Of a stretch of 23,931 bases of DNA, positions 1 to 8,190 are shown piece after piece. The first letter of the stretch is position 1, and every line of letters starts with the position of its first letter. A program made the position numbers and the translations under genes. Origin of the DNA: a virus; the IMG/VR virus record IMGVR_UViG_3300044613_002452, positions 1 through 23,931 of that record. One strand, given 5' to 3'. The notes beneath the pieces were generated by a model that was given only the letters and a program-made list of their open reading frames with translations, searched no databases and was not told the origin of the DNA.

Positions 1-134
1 AGGAGCTTGCGACTGGCGGAAAATGGGCCCAAATTTATTGCGATTTGCTGAAGTAATAAACACTTCCCACGATTTCAGTCTCAACAAGCCCTTTTGATAA
101 TGAGACGCACGAAAAAGCCGTATCACAATGCCCA
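1..134. other. Leader region upstream of the terminase genes
   Basis: No gene is supported here. The stretch is more A/T-rich than the coding DNA that follows. It holds a 6-bp inverted repeat, GTCTCA (78-83) and TGAGAC (101-106), with a TGATAATGA run between the arms that could include a -10-like GATAAT at 95-100; no good -35 sits upstream of it. In lambda the cos site lies directly before the small terminase gene, so this is the natural place to look for cos or for the late promoter. That assignment is inference from gene order; I see no decisive cos sequence. Confidence 0.3.
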
Positions 135-5465: not shown

Positions 5466-5514
5466 GGGCCAACCCCCGACGAAAAACCAACAACAAACCT
5501 AAAAACCTAATAAT
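5466..5514 (+). promoter_or_regulatory. A-rich, SD-less leader of the capsid gene
   Basis: The 49-nt gap before the capsid ATG becomes A/C-rich, with two AACCTAA units and TAATAAT running into the ATG. There is no SD sequence and no stem. An unstructured A-rich leader is known to favour strong translation, in keeping with the most abundant virion protein. No convincing promoter was seen. Confidence 0.4.
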
Positions 5515-6363
5515 ATGGCAAACGTATTCGATTCAGCACTCGTCGTAGCGACGATCTCTGAACAGGTGCAGACGGTGCTCGCCAACCGGTTGGCCCCGCT
5601 CCGCATTTTCAGCACGGATTTCAGCAATGAAGTCCGCAAACCCAAGGACACCGTTCAGGTGCCTCTCGTCACGGCCACCAGCGCCACGGCGACCAACCCG
5701 ACCGACTTCACTCCCGCTTCCGACGTTACCGTTGGCAAGGCGACCGTGACGCTCGATCACTACAGCCAGTTCTTCGGCATCACCCAAGCGGATCTCGCGC
5801 TGGGCCATCGCCTCGAGAATTTGGTTCGTATCAATCTGAACGCCTTGGCCGACAAGATCTTCTCGGTGGCGATCACCCCGATCACCACAGTTAACTTCGG
5901 CGCAGCCACGGTTACCACGACCACCATCACCCCCGGCTCGGGCCATCTCGCTTCCCTGTGGAGCGCGATCAGCAAGAGCGACCGCAAGGGCTTGGTTGTC
6001 ACTCCCGAAATCTACAGCAAGTTGATCCCGACCAACGCCGATTTCCTCCCGCTCCAGAACGGAGCCTACGGATTCGACCAAGGCATCTACTACGCCAACA
6101 GCTTCAGCGGTGCAGTCTCGGGCCTCGACGGCTTCGCGGTTTCGCCCGAAGCGGTGGCGGTGGCCTCGGCCATGCCGGTCATCGACCCCGCAGTTGCCAA
6201 TCTGCTCTACGTCTCGGATTCCGTGACGCTCGACCAGCTCGGCATGACGATCATGTATAACATCACAGCCTCGCAGTCCACACGCACGGTGACTGCCTCC
6301 TGCGAAGTTATGTTCGGATCGGCAGCGGGTCTGACCAGCGGCACCTGCGCGCTCATCATCTAA
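5515..6363 (+). CDS. Major capsid protein
   Basis: This 282-residue protein probably builds the icosahedral shell with an HK97-type fold. The assignment rests on position directly after protease/scaffold, suitable size, and composition: Ala/Thr/Val-rich, no cysteine clusters, an N-terminal helix (MANVFDSALVVATISEQVQTV), a spine-helix-like segment NLVRINLNALADKIF near 103-117, and KGLVVTPEIYSKLI followed by alternating strands as in P-domains. The C-terminus is strand-rich. It starts at ATG 5515 behind an A-rich leader and is followed by two strong hairpins, the only apparent terminators in the window, which would let the capsid message be stable and abundant. I recognise the class rather than a specific family member. 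Confidence 0.75.
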   Translation: MANVFDSALVVATISEQVQTVLANRLAPLRIFSTDFSNEVRKPKDTVQVPLVTATSATATNPTDFTPASDVTVGKATVTLDHYSQFFGITQADLALGHRLENLVRINLNALADKIFSVAITPITTVNFGAATVTTTTITPGSGHLASLWSAISKSDRKGLVVTPEIYSKLIPTNADFLPLQNGAYGFDQGIYYANSFSGAVSGLDGFAVSPEAVAVASAMPVIDPAVANLLYVSDSVTLDQLGMTIMYNITASQSTRTVTASCEVMFGSAAGLTSGTCALII

Positions 6364-6379
6364 GGGTTCGTGTGTTCAT

Positions 6380-6411
6380 CTCCCGGCGGTTGAGTGGCCC
6401 GCCGGGAGTTT
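6380..6411 (+). terminator. Terminator-like hairpin 1 after the capsid gene
   Basis: CTCCCGGCGG (6380-6389) and CCGCCGGGAG (6399-6408) form a perfect 10-bp G/C-rich stem with a 9-nt loop, followed by only TTT. It could slow transcription or protect the capsid mRNA 3' end. Confidence 0.6.
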
Positions 6412-6431
6412 CCACTTAGGCTTAACAGCCA

Positions 6432-6469
6432 AGGGGTCGCGCTTCCACTCGGCGCGGCCCTTCCTTTTT
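6432..6469 (+). terminator. Intrinsic terminator-like hairpin 2
   Basis: AGGGGTCGCGC (6432-6442) pairs with GCGCGGCCCTT (6452-6462) in an 11-bp stem (two G-T wobbles) with a 9-nt loop, then CCTTTTTC. This has the shape of a classical rho-independent terminator. It ends only 5 nt before GTG 6475, leaving no room for a promoter in between. Confidence 0.65.
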
Positions 6470-6474
6470 CTAGC

Positions 6475-8190
6475 GTGGCAAAAATACATCTCGGGATAAT
6501 TGCGGGCAACGAAGAGGCCATGATTGGCCGCTTCTTGGACAGCTTCCAAGCGCACTTCGATTCCGTATCGGTTGTCCGCGCCATCGGCAACCAATCGCCC
6601 GACAGGACGCTGGACATTGCCAAAGAGCGGGGCTGCATCACGGGCGAATACTGGAACGCGCCCGACCGCCAATGGGAACACGTTGATAATTTCGCCGCCG
6701 CCCGCTCGCAAAGTTGGGCGCTGGCACCAGAGGACACCGACTGGTTCATGTGGGCCGACTGCGACGATCTGCTCTCGCCCACCGCCGAAGCGGTCCTGCG
6801 CCTAATCCGCGAGGGCGGTGACGCCCAAGGCGATGTGATCTACGCGCCCTACATTGTAGACGCATCTGGGAGCTACGCCCGCCGCGCCCGGCTGGTCAGC
6901 AAGAAGCATTACCGCCAATGGATCAACGCCGTCCACGAAGACGTTGAGCATGACCCCGAGGCGAAGCTGTCCTGGGCAATGGAGTTGCAAGTTGTCCATA
7001 TGCCCGCGAACAACAAGCGCGCAAGCGTAGTCCGCAACCGGCGCATCCTTGAGGCCATCCCCGAGGCCGAGCGCACGGGCCGCGAATGGTGGTTTTTGTT
7101 CCGCGAGTGCGAGATGGCGCAAGACATCCCGAAAGCGATGGCTGCCGCCGTGGTTGCCACAGGCCGCGACGATCTGGGCGACGAGGAAAAGTTTTCGGCC
7201 TACCAAATGATTGGCCGCTGGATCAAAGACATCGAAGGTTCCGAGCGCCCGCTCCTCGAGGCCGTGCGCCTTATGCCGCATCGGCGCGAGGGATACGCCG
7301 AGCTTGCCAAGGCCCACCTCGCTCGCGGCTCCGCTGACAAAGCCTTGGCCTATGTGCGGGCGATGGAGGCACAAGACGAACCCACCGAGGCAAGCTGGAC
7401 GCATGACGCTTCGCTTTACGGATGGCGAGCGCATGACTTGAAGTGCCTTGCCCTGGCTAAAAGCGGCAAACCCGACGATGCAGCCCGCATCCGCAAAGCC
7501 TACCACAAGCGCAACAAGGTCCGTATTGCCATCGGCCACCCGACTTGTCGCCCAGAAAAGGCCATTGCCGTGCGGGAAATGGCCTTGGCGCGGGCCGCAA
7601 AGCCCGACCAGGTTGCCTATTACTTCGGCGTGAACGAAGGCGATAGTGCGGTTGTCGAGGCATTGCAGCACTACCCGCACGCGATCTCTCAAGCTGTTCC
7701 CGAGGGACACGCCTCTGCCGTGGCAAATTACAACGCAGCCGCCCGCGCCGCCGCCGAATCAGGTGCAAAGATTTTCCTCATGTTGCAAGACGATTTGTAT
7801 GTGCCGCACGGCTGGGACGAACTGATCGTCCGCGCCTTCGAGGGCAACATGGACGCGCCGGCAGTGCTGCATTTGCACGACGGATTCCGCGCAGAAGGCG
7901 ACCCGCTCATGGTGGCGATGTGCTACAACTGGCGATGGTGGCTGGGCCGCGAGTGGTTGCTTTGCCCAGAATACGACGGTTACTGGTCGGATACCGAATA
8001 CAGCTTCCGCGCTTACCGCGACACAAAGGTTCTCAACGGGCGGCACATTCAGCTTTACCACGACCACCCGGCATTCACTGGCTCGGAGTCTGACGAAGCC
8101 TACAGGCGGCAGCAAAACCCAGAGGCCAACGGTCGAGGCCGCGAAGTGTTTGCCCGCCGCAATCCCGACGCCGTGGCAAAGGGATGGTAA
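6475..8190 (+). CDS. Two-domain glycosyltransferase with TPR-like middle
   Basis: This 571-residue protein looks like a cytoplasmic GT-A glycosyltransferase. Its N-terminus HLGIIAGNEEAMIGRFLDSF is the usual family 2 nucleotide-sugar-binding start, and WADCDDL near residues 93-98 supplies the DXD-type metal site. Residues about 210-300 are helical and repeat-like (DKALAYVRAMEA, EGYAELAKAHLARG), as in GT2 proteins with TPR repeats. A second GT-A-like domain begins near 345 (KVRIAIGHPTCRP) and has its own LQDDLYVP acidic motif near 437-441. GTG 6475 is chosen because ATG 6520 would cut the first strand and the upstream GTG 6394 lies inside hairpin 1. Its stop overlaps the next gene (ATGGTAA). 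The donor and target are unknown; virion or host-surface glycan modification is inference. Confidence 0.75.
   Translation: MAKIHLGIIAGNEEAMIGRFLDSFQAHFDSVSVVRAIGNQSPDRTLDIAKERGCITGEYWNAPDRQWEHVDNFAAARSQSWALAPEDTDWFMWADCDDLLSPTAEAVLRLIREGGDAQGDVIYAPYIVDASGSYARRARLVSKKHYRQWINAVHEDVEHDPEAKLSWAMELQVVHMPANNKRASVVRNRRILEAIPEAERTGREWWFLFRECEMAQDIPKAMAAAVVATGRDDLGDEEKFSAYQMIGRWIKDIEGSERPLLEAVRLMPHRREGYAELAKAHLARGSADKALAYVRAMEAQDEPTEASWTHDASLYGWRAHDLKCLALAKSGKPDDAARIRKAYHKRNKVRIAIGHPTCRPEKAIAVREMALARAAKPDQVAYYFGVNEGDSAVVEALQHYPHAISQAVPEGHASAVANYNAAARAAAESGAKIFLMLQDDLYVPHGWDELIVRAFEGNMDAPAVLHLHDGFRAEGDPLMVAMCYNWRWWLGREWLLCPEYDGYWSDTEYSFRAYRDTKVLNGRHIQLYHDHPAFTGSESDEAYRRQQNPEANGRGREVFARRNPDAVAKGW

Follow-up and report, generated by a model that had tools for sequence, protein, structure and literature searches.

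Conserved hairpins with complementary loops form a candidate kissing-loop terminator behind the probable capsid gene of a tailed phage

Intrinsic terminators can follow the major capsid gene of a phage, T-phi after gene 10 of T7 being an example, and tandem terminators are common. Contacts between hairpin loops are exemplified by HIV-1 DIS, in which a 9-nt loop is split 2+6+1. Kissing of the DIS type forms a six-base loop-loop helix (PMC5874298). In the pT181 attenuator an antisense RNA kisses in trans and an antiterminator switch operates in the 5' leader (PMC4878617). The put RNA of phage HK022 prevents termination and folds as a V with a triplex (PMC9378689).

The locus described here lies in a 23,931-nucleotide stretch of viral DNA (IMG/VR record IMGVR_UViG_3300044613_002452, positions 1 to 23,931; hereafter the window). 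It resembles an intrinsic terminator after a major capsid gene in its position, in its GC hairpin followed by a T-run, and in the expected step-down of later genes, but it has two hairpins with matching loops, a middle hairpin, and an interrupted U-tract. The loop of its last hairpin is 9 nt long and, like that of HIV-1 DIS, consists of two bases, six pairing bases, and one purine. In contrast to HIV-1 DIS, the loops are not self-complementary; two different loops lie in one transcript, and the source is a bacterial DNA phage. It shares with the pT181 antisense attenuator kissing hairpins that are tied to an intrinsic terminator, but both hairpins are in one RNA and at the 3' end of a gene. 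With HK022 put it has in common a compact phage RNA with two stem-loops and a bearing on termination. Among the open-licence PMC matches listed, titles and the starts of abstracts held no description of a kissing-loop terminator at a capsid gene.

The window appears to be the left end of a tailed-phage genome, with terminase (128), portal (2887), a further gene (4602), and then the probable capsid gene, in the gene order terminase-portal-p4-capsid. Two glycosyltransferase genes (6475 and 8184) and later genes follow, and many genes after the junction are on the same strand. The product of 5515-6363 is probably the major capsid protein because it has a match to Pfam Phage_capsid_4 (PF25209) of 22.5 bits, under the cut-off of 27, because relatives match PHROG 283, and because of the gene order. 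Phage_capsid_4 was matched by 2 of 16 capsid relatives at E 0.001, and phrog_283 ('major head protein') by 6 of the 16, not by the window's own protein. A PDB profile search with the capsid protein gave no credible match, and its AlphaFold model was unusable (pLDDT 39). The features of the junction are as follows.

5515-6363, + strand: probable major capsid protein gene
6364-6379, + strand: leader with conserved GTGTGTTCA, which sets a distance of 16 nt between the capsid stop codon and hairpin 1
6380-6408, + strand: hairpin H1, a perfect 10-bp stem with the 9-nt loop UUGAGUGGC
6392-6397, + strand: GAGUGG in the H1 loop, 5' half of the kissing sequence, exact complement of 6445-6450
6419-6430, + strand: small middle hairpin of 4 bp with tetraloop UAAC (UUCG or UUAC in relatives)
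6432-6462, + strand: terminator-like hairpin H3 (hairpin 2 of the earlier note), 12 pairs including G-U, loop UUCCACUCG
6445-6450, + strand: CCACUC in the H3 loop, 3' half of the kissing sequence, exact complement of 6392-6397
6461-6469, + strand: interrupted U-tract UUCCUUUUU, the first two U of which also close the H3 stem
6475-8190, + strand: glycosyltransferase family 2 gene (PF00535; phrog_13126) with a GTG start

An earlier note on this DNA had placed two terminator-like hairpins, a T-run, and a GTG start here, and all were found where it put them, with TTTTT at 6465-6469 and the GTG at 6475, 5 nt past the run. In L031, L112, and L113 an ATG takes the position of this GTG. The folding energies that the note had suggested computing also bore it out: H1 folded alone at -21.2 kcal/mol (z -3.7) and H3 at -21.3 kcal/mol (z -4.1), both far stabler than shuffles, and H3 is thus the stable GC-rich hairpin expected of an intrinsic terminator. 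The whole 111 nt folded at -50.0 kcal/mol, compared with -38.0 +/- 3.3 for shuffles, none of 200 of which was as low. A terminator scan of 20 kb returned 32 sites against 26.4 +/- 6.0 expected, a count that is not unusual, with H3 ranked at the top. In minimum free energy folds of 19 of the 37 capsid-selected sequences described below, read by eye, both H1 and H3 always formed, and the middle hairpin formed in 18, L013 being the exception. Four of the 19 folds (L021, L024, L031, and L032) had two extra pairs inside the H1 loop, which kissing would require to open.

The strand is indicated by the structure itself. The minus-strand H3 fold barely beat shuffles (z -0.7), and the U-G pair in H3, which would be a mismatch on the opposite strand, was present in 34 of 34 aligned elements. 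Because of this pair and the one-sided T-run, the features mark the element as one that would act as + strand RNA.

The earlier note overlooked the complementary loops and the third hairpin at 6419-6430. GAGUGG in the H1 loop and CCACUC in the H3 loop could form 6 bp, which reaches the six contiguous Watson-Crick pairs between two hairpin loops that we took as the minimum for a kissing loop. A seventh pair, U-G in 21 and U-A in 13 of the 34 aligned elements, is possible and would compete with the innermost pair of H3. The random chance of six matching pairs between two 9-nt loops is 0.0035. A blind scan for neighboring hairpins of any sequence (stem of at least 8, loop of 6-10, gap of at most 60, and six Watson-Crick loop-loop pairs) found one pair in the window, H1/H3 on the + strand; the minus strand and 20 dinucleotide shuffles of the + strand gave none.

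A search with the capsid protein returned 42 loci. Five (L004, L036, L037, L038, and L043) were left out because their sequence stops short of the region or inside the capsid gene, and L042 (capsid 42%) lacked the element; by eye, another gene lies there, with a plain terminator further on. TGAGTGG and CCACTC were present in all 37 sequences that remained (36 loci plus the window; 27 distinct), none of which had been selected by RNA. In the capsid genes just upstream, by comparison, 5 of 94 fourfold sites were unchanged (sites with an invariant amino acid and first two bases), at a mean pairwise identity of 0.60 among 32 distinct genes. As judged from this difference in conservation, the loops are under strong selection. 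The earlier note had held that absence of the stems from close relatives would speak against its reading; both hairpins are instead conserved. Two exceptions in detail were L039, which has lost one H1 pair, and L007, which keeps both loops with the upper H3 stem broken. The H3 stem of L007 (5850-5967) is a mismatched mix of two common alleles around the retained loop and looks like a product of recombination or an assembly chimera.

Stem covariation in relatives, which the note had also proposed looking at, was evaluated in 34 aligned elements (27 capsid-selected and 7 from a pattern scan that fixed only H1), and compensatory changes were found in both large stems and in the middle hairpin. 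Both sides had changed in pairs 7 and 10 of H1 (5 sequences each), in pairs 8 and 11 of H3 (7 sequences each), and in pairs 2-4 of the middle hairpin, which occurs in four versions, each with all four pairs intact (tetraloops UUCG, UUAC, and UAAC). With the kissing pairs included, 97.8% of cells were paired. The covariation score was 0.139, compared with 0.065 +/- 0.006 in shuffles (0 of 500 reached it; the shuffles ignore relatedness) and 0.017-0.036 with slid partners. Six pairs had changed on both sides, versus 3.8 in shuffles (3 of 500 reached this), and the number of further pair types, one of five measures, was not beyond chance (12 versus 10.6, reached by 122 of 500). MAFFT misplaced the H1 loop in four rows, and the per-pair counts were therefore made by landmarks. 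On a quick capsid tree, the H3 alleles required at least 7 changes, the H1 alleles 4, and the middle hairpin 4, numbers that recombination may inflate.

The loops of the main group are invariant except for A or G at the seventh pair, and covariation of the loop pair comes from one relative, L346, in which the pair is GGGAAG/CUUCCC. L346 was among the best 80 of 437 relatives in a search with aligned glycosyltransferases; its capsid protein is 57% identical and its glycosyltransferase 53%. Its junction (2393-2500) consists of a 9-bp hairpin (loop AGGGAAG), a spacer of 21 nt (23 nt in the window), a long hairpin (loop AACUUCCCG), an interrupted T-run, and then an ATG. The two loops are exact complements, and the second, of 9 nt, is split 2+6+1 as in H3 of the window. 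Loops of 7 and 9 nt would match in this way by chance with a probability of 0.002, or of 0.003 with the loop letters permuted. The leader GTGTGTTCA is absent from L346. The loop pair was thus replaced as a unit in this single relative. Pairing between the H1 and H3 loops is well supported by these comparisons, and we infer that the loops also pair inside the cell.

Two ordinary tandem terminators would account for the hairpins as well, with the loop match accidental or put to some other use, for example as a site that a protein binds. Loops that are invariant in the main group would be expected of such a site too. L346, with a different yet exactly matching pair, argues against this explanation, as does the blind scan, which found no such pair elsewhere in the collected loci: over 3,151,473 bases, redundant and partly chosen by the kissing element itself, all 275 matches were GAGTGG/CCACTC or the L346 pair. 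We regard two ordinary tandem terminators as very improbable.

Whether a terminator is usual at this position was evaluated in stretches upstream of 80 related glycosyltransferases (69 distinct). The score, calculated with a terminator formula from general background, is that of the best hairpin in the 170 nt before the gene, which in kissing rows is often H1 and not H3. The 36 kissing junctions (35 with the main loop pair plus L346) scored from -10.7 to 26.3, with a median of 9.75, compared with a median of 40.8 for 33 non-kissing junctions, which were defined by their glycosyltransferase, whatever the gene upstream (Mann-Whitney p = 4e-9, with rows that are not independent). A strong ordinary terminator (score of at least 28) was present in 29 of the 33 non-kissing and none of the 36 kissing junctions. 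Among the 33, L364 and L366 had no terminator and L355 and L361 scored low.

Capsid relatives were also inspected by eye. One plain terminator stood right after the capsid gene in 13 of 27 relatives outside the kissing group (L275-L284, L286, L288, and L289; capsid 52-58%), and in the other 14 (L290-L303; capsid 40-43%) the capsid gene ran straight into another gene with no terminator. In a more distant set (group 2; capsid ~25% identical), 18 junctions had a plain terminator. On these sequence comparisons, a terminator between the capsid and glycosyltransferase genes is common in the phage family, and the window's group carries a weaker but apparently clasped structure. An ending or insulating role for the kissing element is suggested because ordinary terminators occupy the matching place in relatives. 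The proposal of the earlier note that an element at this junction lowers transcription is accordingly well supported by the 29 strong terminators; of its two terminators, the stopping element stands, and their independence does not, the loops being complementary, conserved, and replaced together in L346.

We consider it about 60% probable that the capsid gene is insulated by a leaky 3'-end element at this junction, made of two weak terminator hairpins clamped together. The region 6364-6474 would be transcribed with the capsid gene and fold into three hairpins, H1 and H3 pairing via their apical loops across a short spacer that holds the small tetraloop hairpin; opening of the innermost H3 pair would allow a seventh U-A or U-G pair. 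H3, together with the interrupted U-tract, would be a leaky intrinsic terminator and H1 a second weak one, and the clasp would lock both into one compact 3' end. The putative effect of the clasp on termination or RNA decay could come from better hairpin closure in the nascent RNA, from shielding of the capsid message against 3' exonucleases, or from both. The net outcome would be much capsid message and less for the glycosyltransferase and later genes. The clasp could also work in the opposite direction, delaying H3 and favoring read-through.

A phage requires capsid protein in much larger amounts than most of the other proteins encoded in the same operon. It is an evenly balanced proposition that the element represents a new class of phage RNA, a kissing-loop terminator that acts in cis. 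An upstream hairpin in the 3' UTR of the capsid gene would grip the terminator hairpin further along on that RNA and thereby fix how much capsid is made relative to downstream products, with the clasp as the part that is regulated or tuned. Should the contact tune termination or protect the message, it would offer a small RNA device, simple to test, with which gene ratios can be set, and an instance of tertiary structure entering intrinsic termination.

The low scores of the kissing junctions, which rate as weak terminators, together with the very stable fold, are also what would be expected if the clasped 3' structure did not itself terminate transcription and only shielded a capsid message that had been cleaved or had ended at another site. 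We consider a role in stability or processing only to be unlikely, given the T-rich tail behind H3 in 33 of the 34 aligned rows (those reaching that far; it is broken in L013) and the strong terminators at 29 of 33 related glycosyltransferase junctions.

The imperfect U-tract and the many later same-strand genes that need transcription fit an antitermination element as well, in which RNA polymerase is the target of the leader, H1, and the clasped pair, as with HK022 put, or H1 seizes the emerging H3 loop and delays the terminator, so that read-through is raised. The conservation of GTGTGTTCA, for which no consistent pairing partner was found in the window's group, also speaks for this reading. 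The put RNA is ~70 nt with two stem-loops, which is similar, but it is located close to the early promoters and affects even terminators at a distance of 10 kb, and 'kissing' does not occur in the main text of that article (PMC9378689). Plain strong terminators at many matching junctions point to stopping rather than read-through, and antitermination therefore appears improbable.

The leader has features of its own. G.GTGTTCA was invariant in the 34 aligned elements, and GTGTGTTCA at window positions 6364-6379 is conserved in the window's group. H1 starts 12-16 nt from the capsid stop codon across members, a spacing that, given the footprint of a terminating ribosome, would place H1 about outside that ribosome. 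GTGTGTT is also kept in group 2, where all 18 junctions (L059:6748-6877 and 17 others) offer it a possible pairing partner, GGACACAC, GAACACAC, or a similar sequence, at the start of the glycosyltransferase gene. The resulting duplex, of -12 to -22 kcal/mol, encloses the plain terminator and is possibly a start lock. By eye, GTTGACA also occurs in group 2 junctions.

Control of glycosyltransferase translation, with H3 or the closed structure limiting ribosome entry, is a further explanation that this group 2 pairing favors. The base of H3 ends 12 nt before the GTG, so that H3 could possibly hide the start region as the earlier note suggested, and no Shine-Dalgarno-like pairing precedes the GTG. 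The latter says little, because anti-Shine-Dalgarno pairing was weaker than -4 kcal/mol at 17 of 24 presumed gene starts; the A- and C-rich leader of the capsid gene (window 5485-5514) likewise has no Shine-Dalgarno pairing. A check of 19 members of the window's group revealed no consistent leader-start pairing, and H3 would work in this way without any clasp. Translation control is thus quite improbable.

On the supposition of the earlier note that the glycosyltransferase gene lacks its own promoter, a promoter scan found 7 sites, versus 6.7 expected by chance. By eye, L357, L363, L383, and L366, the last without a terminator, share a promoter-like TTGCA...CATTACAT a short distance ahead of the glycosyltransferase start, and partial versions occur in L352 and L364. 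The glycosyltransferase in these phages may have its own promoter.

The element was also sought more widely. Rfam gave no match at the gathering threshold in the window (best sub-threshold match 17.7 versus 42 bits), and its 15 sub-threshold matches were chance-like. The window DNA had no similarity to named phages, and protein relatives in named phages were single and remote (capsid 25%, glycosyltransferase 24%). Pattern scans for H1 and H3 over 2.9 million viral contigs returned this family plus matches without a partner. One scan gave 44 stretches, with L117, L121, and L133 outside the family. Among 61 H1-only matches examined, L125 and L139 belonged to the family and the other 59 had no CCACTC in the next 75 nt; the 6 H3-only matches comprised L167 in the family and 5 outside it. 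A covariance model, which also misses L346 and which other loop types would escape, gave weak matches in 10 of 288 Verrucomicrobiota genomes (best 27.5 bits), and 8 loci from these matches had no kissing pair even at laxer settings. Weak matches of 14-20 bits were also seen in related genomes, on the minus strand, at L102:1175-1238, L103:3112-3177, and L056:1126-1192.

There are weak hints that the host belongs to the Verrucomicrobiota. Genome scans for hosts gave no capsid match, and remote terminase matches (24 and 35%) were found in two Verrucomicrobiota MAGs. Akkermansia phage Moulinsart matched at 33%, followed in the same list by phages that infect many other hosts, at remote similarity.

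Window positions 1-127 probably begin at a physical genome end. Of 25 contigs starting near terminase, 22 begin at the window's AGGAG or at TGGAG, or 3-4 nt off in distance. Five of 12 longer loci had no good match to the site, and in the other 7 the sequence is GAGCGCG|AGGAG, which resembles a cos site.
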